55,488 nucleotides of DNA from Lentzea tibetensis (GTDB lineage Bacteria > Actinomycetota > Actinomycetes > Mycobacteriales > Pseudonocardiaceae): NCBI RefSeq assembly GCF_007845675.1, contig NZ_VOBR01000042.1, positions 1 to 55,488 on the forward strand, read 5' to 3'. Every line of letters starts with the position of its first letter. Position 1 is the stretch's first letter. The translations under genes were made by a program, and so were the position numbers. Below are positions 46,984 through 55,341 of this stretch, in pieces. The notes under the pieces were generated by a model. It was not told the DNA's origin and searched no databases. It worked only from the letters and a program-made list of their open reading frames with translations.

Positions 46984-48333
46984 CTACGGCGCGAGCGGAC
47001 CGACGTCCGCCGTCGTGAGCGCCTTGCGGGACACCGAACCGCCGAACTCGTCCGCACCCACGTCGAGCTTGCCGGTGCGGGCGTGCGGGTCGAAGTCGGC
47101 CGTCACGTACGAGTACGTGCCCGCCGACGCGTCGATCGCCGGACTGCCCGCGCCGAGGTGGAACAGGCCGTTGGCGTCGCGCGTCAGCTTCGGGTCGACC
47201 GAGCGGTAGCCGGACGACGGGATGCTGCCAGCCGTGCCGCCCCACACGATGTTGCCCTCATAGCGGACCGTCGAACCGCTGCGCATGTCGACGAGCTTGC
47301 TCGACTTGCCCTGGATGACGTTGTTGGCCACCACGCAGTCCTTCGGCAGGAAGGCACCGCCGTCGCTGTCGACGACCGCGCCCGTGCCGATCAGCGTGTT
47401 GAACGCGACCGTCACGCGGTCCGGCCGGTCGTGCAGCTTCGACGTCGGGCCGCTGTCCGCCTCCTTGCCCGAACCGAACACCATCGCCCGGTCCCGCGTG
47501 TTCTCCACGTAGTTGTTGATGATCTTGTGATCGTTGCCGTGGAAGCGAATTCCGCTCTGGAACAACACGTTGCCCTCGACGACCGAGCGGTCGCCGTGGC
47601 GCAGCACCAGGAAGCCCTTGCTGTCGCGCATCGTGTTGTAGCGGACGATGTTGTCCGACGACTTCACCGAGATCGCCTCGGAGTCGCCGTTCGCCTTCTC
47701 GAACAGGTTGTGTTCGAGAATCGTGTTCGCGGATCCCTTCTGCCGCCAGCTGTTGCCGATCCGGACCGACTCGCCTCCGTTGCCACCGCTGAACTTGTGG
47801 TTGTAGAAGTAGTTGTGGTGCACCCACGACCGCTTGGCCATGCCGTTGGCGCCAGGACCCGAGATGTGCACGTACACGCCCTCGTTCGTCCTGTTCTGGA
47901 ACATGTTGTGGTCGACCTCGGCGTCGTCGCCGCTGACCTCGACCCAGCCACCCGCGTCGTCCGGGATCACCGGCACGTCGATCTCGAGGTTGTTGCGCGT
48001 GATCCGGACCCGGTGCGAGTCCGGCGGGATGGCCAGCCTCCCCTTGTGCCGCAACGTGAACCCGGTCAGCACGACATCGCTCGCGCCGGAGGCGAACACG
48101 AAGCCCGCGCTGCCGCGGATCTCAGCCTTGCCGACGTTCGCCGCGGCCACGGTGATGCCGGACTTGCGGATGGTGATGGCCTTGGTGGAGGTGTAGACGC
48201 CGTCCGCCAGCTCGATCCGGGCGCCCGGCGCAGCGGCGTCGATGGCCGTCTGCAGTGCGGCAAGGCTGGTGACCGGCGCGACAGGCGCGGCGGTCACCAG
48301 ACCTGCCAGCAGTAAGACCGCGCCCGCGATCAC
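46984..48333 (-). CDS. Secreted PL6-family lyase (chondroitinase B-like), copy 2
   Basis: A 449-residue parallel beta-helix enzyme with a short signal peptide (MIAGAVLLLAGLVTAAP). Hallmarks are DHNMFQNRTNEGVYVHISG, NGGESVRIG, NLFEKANGDSEAISVKSSDN, LVLRHGDRSVVEGN and RFHGNDHKIINNY. Lys224 and Arg245 are 21 residues apart, the spacing of the catalytic K250/R271 of Pedobacter chondroitinase B. PL6 enzymes cleave uronic-acid polymers such as alginate or dermatan by beta-elimination with Ca2+. The GTG start overlaps the stop of its upstream paralogue (GTGA). Its stop lies 43 bases from the convergent KAP gene. Confidence 0.88.
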   Translation of the reverse strand: MIAGAVLLLAGLVTAAPVAPVTSLAALQTAIDAAAPGARIELADGVYTSTKAITIRKSGITVAAANVGKAEIRGSAGFVFASGASDVVLTGFTLRHKGRLAIPPDSHRVRITRNNLEIDVPVIPDDAGGWVEVSGDDAEVDHNMFQNRTNEGVYVHISGPGANGMAKRSWVHHNYFYNHKFSGGNGGESVRIGNSWRQKGSANTILEHNLFEKANGDSEAISVKSSDNIVRYNTMRDSKGFLVLRHGDRSVVEGNVLFQSGIRFHGNDHKIINNYVENTRDRAMVFGSGKEADSGPTSKLHDRPDRVTVAFNTLIGTGAVVDSDGGAFLPKDCVVANNVIQGKSSKLVDMRSGSTVRYEGNIVWGGTAGSIPSSGYRSVDPKLTRDANGLFHLGAGSPAIDASAGTYSYVTADFDPHARTGKLDVGADEFGGSVSRKALTTADVGPLAP

Positions 48334-49676
48334 GGCGCACCCGGCCCGACATCGGCCTTCGTCAGCGCCTTGCGGGAGACCGAGCCGCCCTGCTCGTCGG
48401 CACCGACGTCGAGCTTGCCGGACCGCGCGTGCGGGTCGAAGTCGGTCGTCACGTACGAGTAGGTGCCGACGGACGCGTCGATCGCCGGGCTGCCCGCGGC
48501 CAGGTGGTACAGGCCGTTGGTGTCGCGCGTCAGCTTCGGGTCGACCGAGCGGTAGCCGGACGCGGGGATGCTGCCCGCGGTGCCGCCCCACACGATGTTG
48601 CCCTCGTACTTGACGGTCGAGCCGCTGCGGACGCTGGTGAGCGCACCGGAACCCTGGATGACGTTGTTCGCGACCACGCAGTCCTTCGGCAGGAACTTGC
48701 CGCCGTCGCTGTCGATCACGGGGCCCTTGCCGAGCACGGTGTTGAACGCGACCGTCACGCGGTCGGGACGGTCGTGCTCCTTGGACGTGGGCCCGCTGTC
48801 GGCCTCGCTGCCCGACCCGAACACGATGGCGCGGTCACGGGTGTTCTCCACGTAGTTGTTGATGACCTTGTGGTCGTTGCCGTGGAAGCGGATGCCGGTC
48901 TGGAACAGCACGTTGCCGTCGACGACGCTGCGGTTGCCGTGGCGCAGCACGATGAAGCCCTTGCTGTCGCGGATCGTGTTGTAGCGCACGATGTTGTCGG
49001 ACGACTTGATCGAGATGGCCTCGGAGTCACCGTCGGCCTTCTCGAACAGGTTGTGCTCGACGATCGCGTTCGCGGACTTCGACTGCTTGTGGCTGTAGCC
49101 GAGCCGGATGGACTCACCGCCGTTCGCGCCCTTGAACTGGTGGTTGTAGAAGTAGTTGTGGTGGATCCACGAGCGCTTGGCTATGTCGCTGCCCGGCCCG
49201 GTGATCTGCAGGTACACGCCCTCGTTCGTGCGGTTCTGGAACGTGTTGTGGTCGATCTGGACGTCGTCGGCCCCCACCGACAGCGAGGCGCCGGACTTGT
49301 TGCCGGTGTAGGTGTTCCGGGTGATGCGCGTGGCCTGCGCCTCGGGCGGCACGACCATGCCGCCGTAGTTCTCGAAGACGAGACCCTGCACGGTGACGTC
49401 GCGGACGGCGCCGAGCGTGAACGCGCCGGAGCCGGTGATCACGGCGCCGCCGACGTGCTCGGCGGTGATCGTGACGCCGGAGGTGTTGATGGTGATGGGC
49501 CTGTTCGCCCGGTACACGCCGTCCGCCAGCTCGACCCGTTCTCCCGGCTGGGCGGAGTCGATGGCCCATTGCAGCGCGGACACGCTGGCCACCCGGACGG
49601 CATCGGCCGACGCGGGTGTGTGCACGCAGAAGGAAACAAGAACTGCCGCGCCTAGCGCGGCCAGTGAGCGGTACAT
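48330..49676 (-). CDS. Secreted PL6-family lyase (chondroitinase B-like), copy 1
   Basis: A 448-residue paralogue of the following gene, near-identical in the core (RFHGNDHKVINNYVENTRD, DGDSEAISIKSSDN, VLRHGNRSVVDGN, VDPKLTRDTNGLYHL). Lys224, Arg245 and Glu219 sit at the catalytic and calcium positions of chondroitinase B. The signal peptide runs from MYRSLAALGA to PASADA. ATG 49676 follows GGGAG by six bases. It differs most in the first third, around residues 100-140. The two genes form one operon of exported uronate-polymer lyases. Confidence 0.88.
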   Translation of the reverse strand: MYRSLAALGAAVLVSFCVHTPASADAVRVASVSALQWAIDSAQPGERVELADGVYRANRPITINTSGVTITAEHVGGAVITGSGAFTLGAVRDVTVQGLVFENYGGMVVPPEAQATRITRNTYTGNKSGASLSVGADDVQIDHNTFQNRTNEGVYLQITGPGSDIAKRSWIHHNYFYNHQFKGANGGESIRLGYSHKQSKSANAIVEHNLFEKADGDSEAISIKSSDNIVRYNTIRDSKGFIVLRHGNRSVVDGNVLFQTGIRFHGNDHKVINNYVENTRDRAIVFGSGSEADSGPTSKEHDRPDRVTVAFNTVLGKGPVIDSDGGKFLPKDCVVANNVIQGSGALTSVRSGSTVKYEGNIVWGGTAGSIPASGYRSVDPKLTRDTNGLYHLAAGSPAIDASVGTYSYVTTDFDPHARSGKLDVGADEQGGSVSRKALTKADVGPGAP

Positions 49677-49717
49677 CGCCAACTCCCGGAGTGGTCGTTG
49701 GCGGCGGTGATCTGACG

Positions 49718-50159: not shown

Positions 50160-51653
50160 CTAGAAGGACGGCGGGATCCTCGTGTGCCATTCGGTGACCC
50201 GCTGGTAGGTGTCCGCGAGCGAGGCCAGCGCGTGCTCGGAGCGCGGCGGGCCCATCAGCTGCGCGCCGACCGGCATGCCGGACTCGCTGAAGCCGCACGG
50301 GAACGCGACCGCGGGCAGTCCGGCGAGGCTCGCCGGGAAGGTGAACGGCGTCAGCACCGGGACCAGCGGGACGCCGTCGACCTCGGAGATGCCGTGCGGC
50401 AGGTCGGTGACCGGCGAGGTGGGCGTCAGCAGGACGTCGACCCGTTCGAAGAGCGCCGCGTACTCGCGCTTGATCGCGGCGCGGACCCGTTGCGCGTGCA
50501 GGAAGTCCGTGATCGGCACGACCCGGCCGATGTCGAGGAACGCCTGGATGTCGTCGGCGAACGGGCCCTGGTCGCGGAACTCGGCGGCGGCTTCGGCGAA
50601 CACCAGCACGGTGGCCGCGGCGGCGGTGACCTCCAGCGACGGCAGTTCGACGGGCTCGACGCGGGCGCCCAGGTCCTTGAACGTCTCGACGACGTTGGTG
50701 GTGTGCGGGTGCTCGACGACGCCGATGCGGACGTGCTCGGGGCTCAGCGAGCGCAACGCCGCCGTCCCGCCGAGCAGGACCTGGAGCAGCATCCAGCAGT
50801 CCCGCGCGGTGCGGGCCATCGGGCCGACCGCGTCGAACGTCGGCGCCAGCGTCATGACGCCCTCGCGCGGCACCAGCCCGTGCGTCGGCCGGATCGCCGT
50901 GGTGCCGCAGAACGCCGACGGCAGCCGCAGCGACCCGCCGGTGTCCGTGCCGAGCGCGGCGGGGACCTGCCGGGCGGCGAGCGCCGCGGCCGACCCGCCG
51001 GACGAGCCGGACGCCATGCGGTCCGGGTTCCACGGGTTGCGGGTGTGCGGCGTGGACACGCCGTACGCGATCTCGTGCGTGGCGGTCTTGCCGACGAGGA
51101 TGCCGCCCGCCGCGCGCAGCCGGGCGACGACGACCGCGTCCCACGGGGCCGTGCGCCCGGCGAACACCGGGCTCCCCCACTCGGTCGCGAGCCCGTTCGT
51201 GTCGATCAGATCCTTGACGGCGAAGGGGATCCCGTGCAGCGGACCGGCGGGCCACGCGGCCTCGGCGACACCCGCCTGCGCGCGGGCCGCCTCGTCGCTC
51301 CTGCGCACGAACGCGCCGATCACCTCGTCCGTCGCGGCGATCCTGGCGAGGCACGACTCCAGCAGCTCCTGCGGCGACAGCTTGCCCTCGCGGATGGCCT
51401 GCGCGGCCTCCAGCGCACCCAGCTCGTGCGGCTGCGCCACGTCCGGCACCTCGACCGGCAGCGGGCTGCTGAACGGCAGTTTCCTCAGCTGCGGGGCCGG
51501 TGCGTCGTCCGCGCCGGCGACACCGGCGATCACCTCCGCCGAGCCGGTGAGGAACGGCAGCGCCCACTCGAGCCTGCGGACCCGGTCAGCTGTCGCGTCC
51601 ATGCCGAGGAAGCGCGCCACCGCCGCGAGATCGTCAGCCCGTTGCGTTCTCAT
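50160..51653 (-). CDS. Amidase signature family enzyme
   Basis: The 497-residue amidase has the Ser-cisSer-Lys triad: Lys in GIPFAVKDLIDTNG, cis-Ser in MASGSSGGSAAA, nucleophile Ser in GTDTGGSLRLPS. A non-catalytic N-terminal extension of about 75 residues precedes the core. It hydrolyses an amide or acts as an acyltransferase; the substrate is unknown. No GatB or GatC is nearby, so it is not a tRNA amidotransferase subunit. ATG 51653 starts 11 bases after the preceding gene's stop. Confidence 0.88.
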   Translation of the reverse strand: MRTQRADDLAAVARFLGMDATADRVRRLEWALPFLTGSAEVIAGVAGADDAPAPQLRKLPFSSPLPVEVPDVAQPHELGALEAAQAIREGKLSPQELLESCLARIAATDEVIGAFVRRSDEAARAQAGVAEAAWPAGPLHGIPFAVKDLIDTNGLATEWGSPVFAGRTAPWDAVVVARLRAAGGILVGKTATHEIAYGVSTPHTRNPWNPDRMASGSSGGSAAALAARQVPAALGTDTGGSLRLPSAFCGTTAIRPTHGLVPREGVMTLAPTFDAVGPMARTARDCWMLLQVLLGGTAALRSLSPEHVRIGVVEHPHTTNVVETFKDLGARVEPVELPSLEVTAAAATVLVFAEAAAEFRDQGPFADDIQAFLDIGRVVPITDFLHAQRVRAAIKREYAALFERVDVLLTPTSPVTDLPHGISEVDGVPLVPVLTPFTFPASLAGLPAVAFPCGFSESGMPVGAQLMGPPRSEHALASLADTYQRVTEWHTRIPPSF

Positions 51654-51664
51654 CCAGGCTGAGG

Positions 51665-52588
51665 CTAGCCGACCCTCGGCGCGAAACGACGGTTGAAGAA
51701 GTCGAAGTCGTACACGGTGCCGAACCGCGCCTCATCCGTCCAGCCGAGTGTCCGGAAGGGATCACCGGATGAGCCGCCGCCGGGACGCACGGACACGGTC
51801 TCGCTCTTGCCGTCGTACCTGACGTCCACCGCGAGCTCCCAGTCGTACTGGTGGTCCCGCGCGATGGCGAGAACATCGAGCACCAGCGGTTCGCCTTTCT
51901 CCAGGTACCGGAAGTTGACGTCGAGGTAGGGCCGGAGACCGTCGTCACCGCGCACCTCGGCCCTCGGCTCGGACGACGTGTCGAGGTCGAGGTAGACCTC
52001 GTCGAGTGTGCCCCCGCCCTGCGGCGGACCGAAGAGCAGCGTGCCGCGAGGTGGCTTCTCCTTCGCGAGCACCTTCGCCCTGACGTCGACCAGCTGAACC
52101 TTCTGCTCCCTGTTGCCGGTGAGGGTCACCTTCACGTGGGTCGACCCGACGCAGAGGTTGGGCTCGTTCGGCTTGTAGGTGGGGTTCACCCTCGTACCGC
52201 CCGAGGTCTGCGCCAGTGCCTCGAACTCCGGCCGCACCGGATCCGGGTGCCGGTGCTCGTCCAGCACCAGTTCGCCCTCGATCGCGGCGGCTTGCGCGGG
52301 CGTCAGGTCGTCGCGGAACACCCACGTGCCCGCGTCGAGCGCGAACGGCGTCACCTGCGCCAGCAGAGCGGGCGCGGACGCGAGCTGCTCGTCCTTGGCC
52401 CGGTCGACCGCGCGCTGCGCGTCCACCGCGGTCTGCGAGGTGCGCACCCACTGCACGAGCGCGATGATCATGCCGAGCACCGTCAGCGCCACGGGCAGCC
52501 AGAACTTCCAGGTCTTCTCACCGGTGCGCACCGGTGCCGGGCGTCCAGCTGTTCTCGGCCGTCTCCTGTTCGCCTTGTTTCTCCCCAC
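51665..52588 (-). CDS. Single-pass membrane protein of unknown function
   Basis: The 307-residue protein has a basic N-terminal tail (RRRPRTAGRPAPVR), one membrane segment at about 28-47 (FWLPVALTVLGMIIALVQWV) and a long hydrophilic domain. The domain opens with a helix (AQRAVDRAKDEQL) and then becomes beta-rich, ending in FFNRRFAPRVG. The domain is probably outside the cytoplasm. No family is recognised. It starts at GTG 52588 and lies just upstream of the amidase gene, possibly in the same operon. Confidence 0.7.
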   Translation of the reverse strand: MGRNKANRRRPRTAGRPAPVRTGEKTWKFWLPVALTVLGMIIALVQWVRTSQTAVDAQRAVDRAKDEQLASAPALLAQVTPFALDAGTWVFRDDLTPAQAAAIEGELVLDEHRHPDPVRPEFEALAQTSGGTRVNPTYKPNEPNLCVGSTHVKVTLTGNREQKVQLVDVRAKVLAKEKPPRGTLLFGPPQGGGTLDEVYLDLDTSSEPRAEVRGDDGLRPYLDVNFRYLEKGEPLVLDVLAIARDHQYDWELAVDVRYDGKSETVSVRPGGGSSGDPFRTLGWTDEARFGTVYDFDFFNRRFAPRVG

Positions 52589-52644: not shown

Positions 52645-52658
52645 AAGTGATATCACTT
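52645..52658. promoter_or_regulatory. Perfect 14-bp palindrome upstream of the SPFH operon
   Basis: AAGTGATATCACTT is a gapless self-complementary sequence 33 bases before the SPFH start, close to where a promoter would lie. It stands out as A/T-rich in a very GC-rich setting. The ribbon-helix-helix protein encoded two genes on is a likely binder, giving autoregulation. The divergent membrane-protein gene could also be affected. Confidence 0.65.
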
Positions 52659-52690
52659 AGCTAGTCATTCGATAGACATGAGGGGGCACG

Positions 52691-53608
52691 ATGAGCGCGA
52701 CGACGGACACCGTGGTTCGGATGCCGGCTCCGGTGGTGCGGGAAACGAAGGCTGTTGAGCTGCCCGGCATCGCGATGTTCTTCGCGGGCCTGGTGACGGT
52801 GCTGGTGGGCGCGGGGTTGTTCGTGCTCGGCATGGGTGACGGCGAGCCGGTGGTGGCGCTGGCCGTGTTCGGCCTGCTGGTGATCACCGCGGGTGCCGTG
52901 GTGCTCAGAGGGCTGTTCACCGTCGCGCCGGGCCAGGCGCGGGTGCTGCAGTTCCTCGGCAGGTACGTCGGCACGGTGCGCTCGGACGGCCTGCGCTGGG
53001 CGAACCCGTTGGTGACGCGGGAGAAGATCTCGACGCGGATCCGCAACCTCGAGACCGCGACGCTGAAGGTGAACGACGCCGACGGCAACCCGATCGAGAT
53101 CGCGGCGGTCGTCGTGTGGCAGGTCGAGGACACCGCGCGGGCCCGGTTCGAGGTCGACGACTTCGTGCGGTTCGTCGGCATCCAGACCGAGACCGCGGTG
53201 CGGCACATCGCCACGAGCTACCCGTACGACAACCACGAGGAGTCGGGGCTGTCGTTGCGGGAGAACGCGGACGAGATCACCGAGACGCTGTCCATCGAGA
53301 TCGCGGCGCGGGTCGAGTCGGCGGGCGTGCGGGTGATCGAGTCGCGGCTGACGCACCTCGCGTACGCGCCGGAGATCGCGCAGGCCATGCTGCAGCGGCA
53401 GCAGGCGGGCGCGGTCGTGGCCGCGCGGACGCGGATCGTGGAGGGTGCCGTGGGCATGGTCGAGCTGGCGCTCGCGAGGCTGGCCGAGCAGGACGTGGTC
53501 GAGCTGGACGAGGAGCGCAAGGCGGCGATGGTGTCGAACCTGCTCGTCGTGCTGTGCGGTGAACGATCGACGCAGCCCGTGATCAACACCGGATCGCTCT
53601 ACCACTGA
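52691..53608 (+). CDS. SPFH (stomatin/prohibitin) domain membrane protein
   Basis: A 305-residue protein with two adjacent hydrophobic segments (about 27-47 and 53-72) followed by the SPFH fold. The fold has [50 protein letters not shown] and an Arg/Ala/Glu-rich helical part around [23 protein letters not shown] proteins oligomerise into membrane rings that organise microdomains or hold proteases. ATG 52691 follows GAGGGGG. Its stop overlaps the RHH gene start by one base (TGATG). Confidence 0.9.
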
Positions 53609-53829
53609 TGGCCGAGCGCAAAAGCGTTCTGCTCCGGCTCGACCCCGCCGTGCACGACGCGCTGACCCGGTGGGCGAACGACGAGCTGCGCAGCACCAAC
53701 GCGCAGATCGAGTTCCTGCTCCGGCGCGCGCTGGCCGACGCGGGCCGGTTGCCCGGCGAGGCGAAGCAGATGCCTCGCCGGGGCAGGCCGCCCAAGGAAC
53801 AGCAATCGAGCCAAGAGCAATCGGGTTGA
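53608..53829 (+). CDS. Ribbon-helix-helix (Arc/CopG-like) protein
   Basis: A 73-residue protein whose first 45 residues (ERKSVLLRLDPAVHDALTRW to IEFLLRRALADAG) form a ribbon-helix-helix DNA-binding fold. A basic, Gln-rich disordered tail (PRRGRPPKEQQSSQEQ) follows. Translation is coupled to the SPFH gene. It is the best candidate for binding the palindrome at 52645-52658 and repressing its own operon. It has no toxin partner. Confidence 0.8.
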   Translation: MAERKSVLLRLDPAVHDALTRWANDELRSTNAQIEFLLRRALADAGRLPGEAKQMPRRGRPPKEQQSSQEQSG

Positions 53830-53850
53830 CGAGGCTGCGACGGTGGGTGA

Positions 53851-55341
53851 ATGGACGATCTGCCGACAGCCGACGCCCGTTCGCTCGCCACCTCGATCCG
53901 CAGGCTGTTCGAGGACTCGCACCGACTGCTCGCGGACACCTCGTCCGAGCTGGTCGCCGCGATCACCGGCCACATCGGGTGCCCGATGAGCCAGGTCCCG
54001 AACGTGACGGCCCGTTTCGAAGGCTGGGAGCACGTCAACGTGCACCGCGGGCTGGAGAGCTTCCTCGCGGAGCACTCGCCGGGTGCGGAGTGGTTCGGCA
54101 TCGCGGGTAACCGCATGCACCAGTCGTTGATGGACATGCTCACGGGCGCGATGCACGGCGGCTACGAGCTCGGCGCGGTGGACTACGTGACGCTCGCGAC
54201 CGGCCCGGACAGCGCCGAGGAGGCGGTGCAGTTCGGGCTGGTCCGCACGGTCGCCCCCGGTGGCGCGCCGGTCGTGCTGGCGGTGCAGGGCCCGCAGGAG
54301 GACCGCGGCGAGTTCCGCTGCGCGGTGCAGGTGCTGGCCGCGGACCGGGAGACCGCGACGCTCGCCCGTGAGGAGGTCGAGCGGCAGGTGCGTGCGCACG
54401 ACGTGTTCCGCGGCCAGGTGCTCGCGTTCGGCATCAGCGAGCACCGCGGCAACCAGCTGCTGACGTTCCTGCCGCGGCCGTCGCTGCGGCCGGAGGACGT
54501 CGTGCTGCCGGACGGCGTGCTGCGAGCGATCGAGCGGCACGTGGTGCGGTCGGCGTCGCAGAGCGAACGGCTCCGCGCGCACGGCCAGCACCTCAAGCGC
54601 GGCCTGCTGCTGTACGGGCCGCCGGGAACGGGCAAGACGCACACCGTGCGGTACCTGCTCGGGCGGCTGGAGAGCACGGTGATCGTGCTCAGCGGTGTCG
54701 CGATGTTCCGGTTCCTGCGCACCGCCACCGCGCTGGCGCGACGGCTGGAGCCCGCCGTCGTGGTCGTCGAGGACGTCGACCTGATCGCCGAGGACCGGAA
54801 CTTCACGACGTCCGGCAGCCCGGCGCTGTTCGAGCTGCTGAACGAGATGGACGGCATCGGCTCCGAGGCGGACGTGACGTTCGTGCTCACCACGAACCGC
54901 GTCGAGATGATGGAGCAGGCGCTCGCCGAACGTCCCGGTCGCGTCGACCTGGCGATGGAGGTGCCGCTGCCGGACGCCGAGTGCCGCGAACGCCTGCTGC
55001 GCCTGTACGCGTCCGATGTGGACCTCGACCTCACCGACGCGTCCGCGATCGTCACGGCGTCCGACGGCGTGACGGCGTCGTTCGTGAAGGAGCTGGTGCG
55101 GCGGGCCGTGCTGATCGCGCTCGACGAGCAGCCGTCGGCAGCGCGGGTGCGGCTCGACGAGTCGACGATCACGGCCGCGCTCGGTGAGCTGATGGACGAG
55201 CGGCAGGCGTTGACGCGCAGCATCCTCGGCGGCGGTGGACCGGCGGACCGCCAGCGCGCGACGGTGTCGCGCGCACCCGCCGCGGTGCGCCAGGCATTCG
55301 CTGTCCCGACAGGGGCCTCACCAGGCGTTTCACCTGCGTGA
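53851..55341 (+). CDS. AAA+ ATPase of the SPFH operon
   Basis: The 496-residue protein has a unique N-terminal region (1-220) and a classical AAA module. Walker A is LLYGPPGTGKTHT (255-265), Walker B VVVVEDVDLI (303-312), sensor-1 Asn349 in LTTNR, and the arginine-finger segment ERPGRVD (360-366). The AAA part resembles FtsH/Cdc48-type unfoldases, but there is no HExxH protease domain and no membrane segment. With the SPFH protein it recalls the FtsH-HflKC pairing, except that the ATPase is soluble and protease-free. The start ATG 53851 lies 21 bases after the RHH stop. Confidence 0.85.
   Translation: MDDLPTADARSLATSIRRLFEDSHRLLADTSSELVAAITGHIGCPMSQVPNVTARFEGWEHVNVHRGLESFLAEHSPGAEWFGIAGNRMHQSLMDMLTGAMHGGYELGAVDYVTLATGPDSAEEAVQFGLVRTVAPGGAPVVLAVQGPQEDRGEFRCAVQVLAADRETATLAREEVERQVRAHDVFRGQVLAFGISEHRGNQLLTFLPRPSLRPEDVVLPDGVLRAIERHVVRSASQSERLRAHGQHLKRGLLLYGPPGTGKTHTVRYLLGRLESTVIVLSGVAMFRFLRTATALARRLEPAVVVVEDVDLIAEDRNFTTSGSPALFELLNEMDGIGSEADVTFVLTTNRVEMMEQALAERPGRVDLAMEVPLPDAECRERLLRLYASDVDLDLTDASAIVTASDGVTASFVKELVRRAVLIALDEQPSAARVRLDESTITAALGELMDERQALTRSILGGGGPADRQRATVSRAPAAVRQAFAVPTGASPGVSPA

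Follow-up and report, generated by a model that had tools for sequence, protein, structure and literature searches.

An SPFH membrane protein and a candidate ribbon-helix-helix regulator behind a conserved palindrome, a probable operator, with an AAA+ ATPase as a probable local addition

At the end of the analysed stretch of Lentzea tibetensis DNA (55,488 nt of contig NZ_VOBR01000042.1, hereafter the window) lie three consecutive genes of the + strand, which encode an SPFH (Band_7) membrane protein, a small protein presumed to be of the ribbon-helix-helix (RHH) type and a soluble AAA+ ATPase, behind a perfect, gapless 14-bp palindrome (Table 1). This arrangement had been described in a first-pass annotation and was confirmed by locating the open reading frames and the palindrome in the window. 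The stop of the SPFH gene and the start of the RHH gene share 1 nt (i.e. the reading frames overlap), 21 nt separate the RHH gene from the AAA+ gene, 32 bases lie between the end of the palindrome and the SPFH start, and the contig stops 147 nt past the AAA+ gene. It seems probable that the locus is built around a two-gene module, in which SPFH and a small RHH regulator stand behind a dedicated operator and are repressed by the RHH protein, with the AAA+ gene as a local addition. Compared with the first-pass annotation, the finding is stronger than first stated in its regulatory half and weaker in its ATPase half.

Table 1. Features at the end of the window
Feature	Position	Strand	Basis or remark
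Putative operator palindrome AAGTGATATCACTT, core TGATATCA	52645..52658	.	Gapless 14 bp, next pair mismatched
AGCTAGT, local NGnTA form of the conserved TGnTA box	52659..52665	+	Fixed position relative to the operator across loci
SPFH (Band_7) membrane protein, 305 aa	52691..53608	+	Pfam Band_7, hydropathy, structure profile
Small RHH (Arc/CopG-like) presumed DNA-binding protein, 73 aa, tail RRGRPPK	53608..53829	+	RHH matches below cut-off
Soluble classical AAA ATPase, 496 aa, N-terminal region of ~220 residues	53851..55341	+	Pfam AAA

Taken alone the palindrome is unremarkable, since the window is rich in G+C and contains 12 perfect palindromes of at least 14 bp. The sequence AAGTGATATCACTT is A/T-rich and is the sole exact copy in the genome, with no further site within 3 mismatches in the window, and an origin by chance is ruled out by its conservation. 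The exact 14-mer was found in 27 of the 397 genomes of the order (own genome included), and the reversed-pattern control gave none in the same 397 genomes among the matches listed. Besides the window there are 26 such loci, of which 24 have SPFH and RHH directly behind the site and two, both in genus g43, an ABC exporter; the palindrome is also retained at the same position in other genera and outside the order.

For a comparison of upstream regions, 89 SPFH loci were used, comprising all 75 from the family set (unselected) and 14 further ones (L277-L282, fetched because they hold the palindrome, L038-L044 from the AAA+ scan and L283 from the RHH search). The first-pass annotation had proposed that the palindrome be sought upstream of homologous operons, and TGATATC indeed stands at the matched site in 89/89 loci, including 75/75 family genomes. 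The complete core, TGATATCA, is present in 88 of them, the exception (L253) reading TGATATCG. The outer operator bases vary, partly as matched pairs: among the 86 loci used for covariation and tail counts (the three without an adjacent RHH gene being left out), pair 3/12 is complementary in 71 and swapped from G-C to C-G in 6. Beyond positions -2 to +18 the information content drops close to background. Downstream of the palindrome, a TGnTA box, which we take to be extended -10-like, occurs at a fixed position in 64/89 loci (NGnTA in 76/89), compared to a TGnTA rate of 0.6% per position in the upstream regions.

The operator, the SPFH gene and the RHH gene also occur in the same genomes. In the family sample of 120 genomes (own genome included) SPFH is present in 75, with a single SPFH match in each of the 75, and RHH in 76, these being the 75 with SPFH and G005; the two genes are neighbours by coordinates in 72 of the 75. 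A degenerate operator pattern, WWSTGATATCASWW, is found in 65 of the 75 SPFH-positive genomes and in none of the 45 SPFH-negative ones (Fisher 1e-23, without kinship correction), and its reversed control in 1 of the 120. The match sits at SPFH in 63 of these 65 genomes; in G006 and G040 it lies only elsewhere, and the SPFH operators there are variant. G005 represents a natural deletion, in which SPFH is cut to ~33 aligned C-terminal residues and the RHH gene and an operator with 2 mismatches are kept.

Outside the family, SPFH was found in 87 of 296 genomes of the class (own genome and G045 included). The 28 best-scoring SPFH loci of these 87 genomes (L338, being the same place as G045, was excluded) all carry a site with at most 2 mismatches, the core being intact in 24. 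The degenerate pattern is present in 59 of 80 SPFH-bearing class genomes, 5 of 85 having been excluded for weak (three) or partial (two) SPFH matches, and the reversed control in 1; these matches are not always at SPFH, lying only elsewhere in G564 and G712. A cluster that resembles rpsT (named by eye) is near SPFH in 43/89 loci, which indicates stable chromosomal synteny, and among the 20 commonest neighbour clusters (representatives read by eye) no regulator-like one was seen except RHH. At the level of sequence, this comparison demonstrates that the operator, SPFH and RHH hold their positions and are inherited together, so that the first-pass proposal of a self-regulated unit is well supported by comparison.

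The association extends to plasmids of other phyla. There are 28 plasmid records with an SPFH match, and in the 15 listed ones, which were examined, a profile search located an RHH gene directly behind SPFH in 10. A full core lies upstream in 6 of these 10 (5 of the 9 outside Actinomycetota), i.e. in Deinococcus NW-56 and QL22, Qipengyuania, Bosea, Acetoanaerobium and Nonomuraea, the last of which belongs to Actinomycetota. Two near-cores are present in the Rhizobium locus, and half-sites of six bases, spaced 11 bp apart, in the loci of Parabacteroides and Prevotella. The RHH-less loci (Deinococcus radiophilus, D. proteolyticus, P. aeruginosa, P. amygdali and Teredinibacter) have no full, near or half core, which gives 6/10 versus 0/5 for the full core (Fisher p 0.042) and 9/10 versus 0/5 for full, near or half cores together (p 0.002). 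In a simple simulation a full core is expected by chance in 0-1.2% of loci per 250 nt. In all, SPFH-RHH was seen together with the full core in Actinomycetota, Deinococcota, Pseudomonadota and Bacillota, i.e. in four phyla, and the two genes give the impression of a membrane module that is old, self-regulated and shared by several bacterial phyla. The RHH neighbours are annotated in the plasmid records as 'HicB family antitoxin', 'Arc family DNA-binding protein' or 'PTS ascorbate transporter subunit', others being hypothetical, and a search for RHH in phages gave one weak match among 50,697 records. The loci L402, L404 and L409 have half-sites or full cores upstream of SPFH that recur at a spacing of 11 bp, close to one turn of the helix, as though two RHH dimers sat next to each other on the DNA.

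The SPFH protein belongs to the SPFH/Band_7 family (Pfam Band_7 6.5e-21, 75.6 bits against a gathering score of 23.6), has hydrophobic residues at 20-81 by hydropathy, and its family profile matches the solved structures of QmcA (8z5g, 1.9e-6) and 2rpb (1.4e-4). It does not qualify as HflK, the NCBIfam score being 16.8 bits against a cut-off of 159.4. Its C-terminus (window 53480-53605), ending in QPVxNTGSLY, is strongly conserved, also in many distant plasmid homologues (L399-L410), which suggests a specific contact.

The window protein itself, called RHH in the first-pass annotation, matches RHH_5 (E 0.0034) with 17.5 bits, below the Pfam cut-off of 26. All 20 homologues compared match RHH_5 and 19 of the 20 ParD_like, each under the Pfam cut-offs, and the Arc cut-off is passed by 4 of 9 distant relatives; matches of the family to the ParD, FitA and HicB models are weak. 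GRP is present in the tail of 86/86 RHH proteins, and 62/86 carry [RK][RQKG]GRPx[KR]. The tail thereby contains a basic residue-x-G-R-P motif, which we take to be the core of an AT-hook, and this AT-hook-like tail is absent from several distant relatives. Residues R4, K5, L9, R10, D12 and P13 are invariant in 86/86. Residue 6 is Lys in all 12 loci whose operator starts with ATGTG, which hints at covariation but is confounded by kinship.

Repression by the RHH protein, through the operator beside the TGnTA box, would be the likeliest mechanism. An RHH dimer would read the TGATATCA core and grip, by its GRP tail, the minor groove of the A/T-rich flanks. Bound in the promoter marked by TGnTA, it would repress its own operon, i.e. 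SPFH-RHH and, where present, AAA+. Membrane or drug stress might then relieve the repression and so raise the amount of SPFH scaffold; in some genera the other operator copies could in the same way release an exporter or a drug-modifying enzyme.

Several observations weigh against repression of the pair by its own RHH protein, or against the evidence for it. In three genomes of genus g19 (G019, G057 and G109) the RHH gene lies away from SPFH, and within 6.5 kb around these unlinked RHH genes no TGATATCA core was found. A single change in the core occurs in 4 of the 28 class loci. The 89 aligned rows were anchored on the palindrome and six of them (L277-L282) were chosen for holding it, so that only the box downstream of the palindrome is free of anchoring bias; this box is missing in 25/89 loci as TGnTA and in 13/89 as NGnTA, and no -35 box is enriched in the 89 upstream regions. 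Among the plasmids, the RHH-linked locus of Phocaeicola (L408) has no core or half-site, and the six-base half-sites of Bacteroidota may be due to chance in A/T-rich DNA. Of the five RHH-less plasmid controls three (L411-L413) are weak: L412 and L413 (P. amygdali and Teredinibacter) have an SPFH that is only 34-35% identical, and L411 (P. aeruginosa) has no intact SPFH frame at the place inspected, its upstream region having been placed by guess. As for the protein, the RHH monomer model is an unbroken helix (13-44) with no ribbon, a ribbon forming only in the dimer; a structure search with this monomer model gave no significant match and no RHH structure, and the RHH profile against the PDB retrieved only designed or unrelated chains. 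Finally, 7 of the 22 operator copies found away from SPFH (L315, L316 and L385-L389) have no evident link to stress or export. In the g19 genomes the SPFH genes keep an operator with 3 or 4 mismatches, so that the unlinked RHH gene fits action in trans and not autoregulation in those genomes.

These 22 off-locus copies were detected with the degenerate pattern (11 in the family scan and 11 in the class scan), and 15 of them lie beside transport or drug-modification genes, as identified with Pfam on one example of most and by similarity or eye for the remainder. An ABC-2 exporter is the neighbour in three genomes of g43 and in three of g168, a genus of another order, whose exporter ATPases are 61-69% identical to the g43 one compared. 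Two copies (G018 and G066) adjoin an ABC gene accompanied by a type II thioesterase, and in four genomes of g16 (L309-L312) a copy precedes an EryCIII-type UDP-glycosyltransferase, which in 3 of the 4 is divergent from a PNPOx-MFS pair. Two further copies lie by a MATE exporter that has a membrane hydrolase in divergent orientation, and one by the same hydrolase alone. At the SPFH operator itself, an ABC gene is divergent across the site in two Actinophytocola loci (L043 and L044). Given the exporter and drug-modifying genes at the operator copies, membrane or drug stress is therefore favoured as the signal, with modest confidence. A more far-reaching picture, offered tentatively and as the less probable extension of the two-gene module, is that of an ancient, widespread envelope-stress circuit, in which the SPFH ring would sense the membrane and control the RHH/AT-hook repressor (e.g. 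by holding it at the membrane), which in turn would switch SPFH and, in some lineages, drug exporters and inactivating enzymes by way of a single, almost invariant TGATATCA operator, with AAA+ unfoldases as optional remodellers.

The first-pass annotation had seen the locus as akin to HflKC-FtsH with a freed ATPase, i.e. as a three-part quality-control machine made up of the SPFH ring, the RHH regulator and the AAA+ unfoldase. That the ATPase is soluble and free of a protease was borne out: it matches Pfam AAA (5.1e-19), has its Walker A at residues 256-263, and its sequence contains no HExxH and no membrane-like hydrophobic stretch. It is not an FtsH (82.1 bits against a cut-off of 600), its predicted model (pLDDT 84.8) resembles unfoldases, and its N-terminal region gave one chance-level match when searched against the PDB by sequence. 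A joint machine would also agree with the tandem order, the short gap and the shared operator. The triple SPFH-RHH-AAA+ recurs in 5 named Lentzea, 2 named Actinophytocola and G115, the palindrome is present in exactly those fetched AAA+ loci that have the triple, and all 11 other family genomes with a full-length AAA+ also carry SPFH (P 0.004 without kinship correction, the own genome being counted among the 75 and the 120 and not among the 11).

However, AAA+ neighbours SPFH in only 8 of 91 relatives' loci (fetched flanks), and all four sampled genomes of the same genus have SPFH-RHH and no full-length AAA+, nor is there an AAA+ remnant at the SPFH locus of these congeners. From 17 AAA+ loci hand-picked for spread, 16 genomes were searched (L045 was left out), and 13 of the 16 have no match to the window SPFH at 1e-20, because of which the co-occurrence at P 0.004 is weakened. 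The AAA+ protein as a core partner was rejected on these grounds, and with the HflK score far under its cut-off and the lack of HExxH the quality-control machine appears rather improbable. The annotation would have counted its reading as refuted if SPFH homologues lacked the palindrome and the AAA+ gene was not conserved beside them, and the outcome is split, as the palindrome core is conserved and the AAA+ gene next to SPFH is not; likewise, of the three families expected to co-occur, SPFH and RHH go together with the operator, whereas AAA+ is not part of the core. The AAA+ gene is probably a lineage-specific, co-regulated third member of the operon, and the module exists without it.

A role in phage defence was considered and rejected, as PADLOC gave no match for SPFH or RHH and the similarity of the ATPase is mainly in its AAA domain (best PADLOC match 4.7e-17 over residues 210-423; 58.6 bits against a cut-off of 510 for the NCBIfam equivalog of the anti-phage ATPase IetA/IteA, so that it does not belong there). 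On plasmids, AAA+ gave 43 records, none reaching 80% query coverage. Three tandem copies of the AAA+ family occur in a metagenome-derived genome labelled Gammaproteobacteria (L090:38-4136), and G019 has, far from SPFH (C3:921944-922105), a fragment of 54 residues that shares 78% identity with AAA+ residues 331-384 and is perhaps a remnant.

It could also be that the palindrome serves an unrelated regulator, for example of the BldD or GntR type, and that the RHH protein does something else. The operator copies before exporters away from RHH and the unlinked RHH gene of g19 would agree with this, and the AGTGA..TCAC arms may be reminiscent of other actinobacterial sites. Sites of a general regulator should, however, turn up in the 45 SPFH-negative family genomes as well, and none was found there with the degenerate pattern; the 20 commonest neighbour clusters include no other regulator by eye, and among plasmid loci from several phyla the site goes with RHH, which together make such a regulator quite unlikely. 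Less likely still is a toxin-antitoxin-like pair, in which an RHH antitoxin would autoregulate the operon and SPFH would be the harmful partner: autoregulation through a palindrome is usual in such pairs and would suit the HicB annotation and the weak ParD, FitA and HicB matches, but SPFH has no RHH neighbour in 5 of the 15 plasmid loci, RHH lacks an intact SPFH in G005, and one SPFH per genome (75/75) with stable synteny beside the rpsT-like cluster (43/89) speaks against it.

The two-gene module can be set beside several known systems. The locus resembles HflK/HflC-FtsH in having a classical AAA ATPase gene close to that of an SPFH membrane protein; it differs in that SPFH is not HflK by score and the ATPase is soluble, without HExxH, and not conserved beside SPFH. 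With the Arc, CopG and omega repressors it shares a small, presumed RHH protein and a putative inverted-repeat operator over a promoter, the differences being the pairing with SPFH and, in actinobacterial members, the AT-hook-like tail; TATCACT may resemble the omega heptad. For the AAA+ model the second-best Foldseek chain is YjoB of Bacillus subtilis (7w46, 7w42; 429 columns, 18% identity, rmsd 10.2), which was not among the 50 rows of a second aligner, so that a kinship of the N-terminal region is at most tentative. In a table of PMC3514339, yjoB has the entry 'ATPase possibly involved in protein degradation'. Passages of PMC11237479 describe Flotillin/NfeD and PspA/band-7 operons as stress-linked and as containing membrane SPFH/band-7 proteins, some with AAA+; in contrast, the partner here is RHH, and the AAA+ described there includes coiled-coil and beta-propeller parts.

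An excerpt of PMC9040799 places SCO2834, an SPFH protein, beside cslA-glxA (its membership in the window SPFH family is not shown), and one of PMC11960670 places a paraslipin near an ABC transporter. In PMC7159879 and PMC8656257 the sought terms appeared in the reference lists only, and the portion of PMC3936707 that was retrieved concerns an unrelated gel band. In the open-access literature searched, no description of the SPFH-RHH pair was found: GTGATATCAC gave no bacterial SPFH regulator by title among the matches listed, TGATATCA with Streptomyces nothing apt by title, SPFH with ribbon-helix-helix a reference-list mention only, and SPFH with 'Arc family DNA-binding' no match.

To our knowledge, SPFH proteins are widespread and their control is seldom known. 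In the present case the sequence itself points to a candidate regulator, to the exact DNA site that goes with it and to a few further targets, so that it can be tested directly when SPFH assemblies are built by bacteria.

As for the surroundings, an amidase-like gene (by eye) and a gene for a 307-aa protein without Pfam match lie at 50160-52588 of the window, between a NUDIX-like gene and SPFH. These two genes are missing from Lentzea loci such as L039 and L040, in which the gene order is otherwise identical. Further upstream, on the minus strand (46984-49682), the window contains two similar tandem genes for secreted beta-helix proteins (polysaccharide-lyase-like by eye), and this gene pair also adjoins SPFH in several Lentzea loci.

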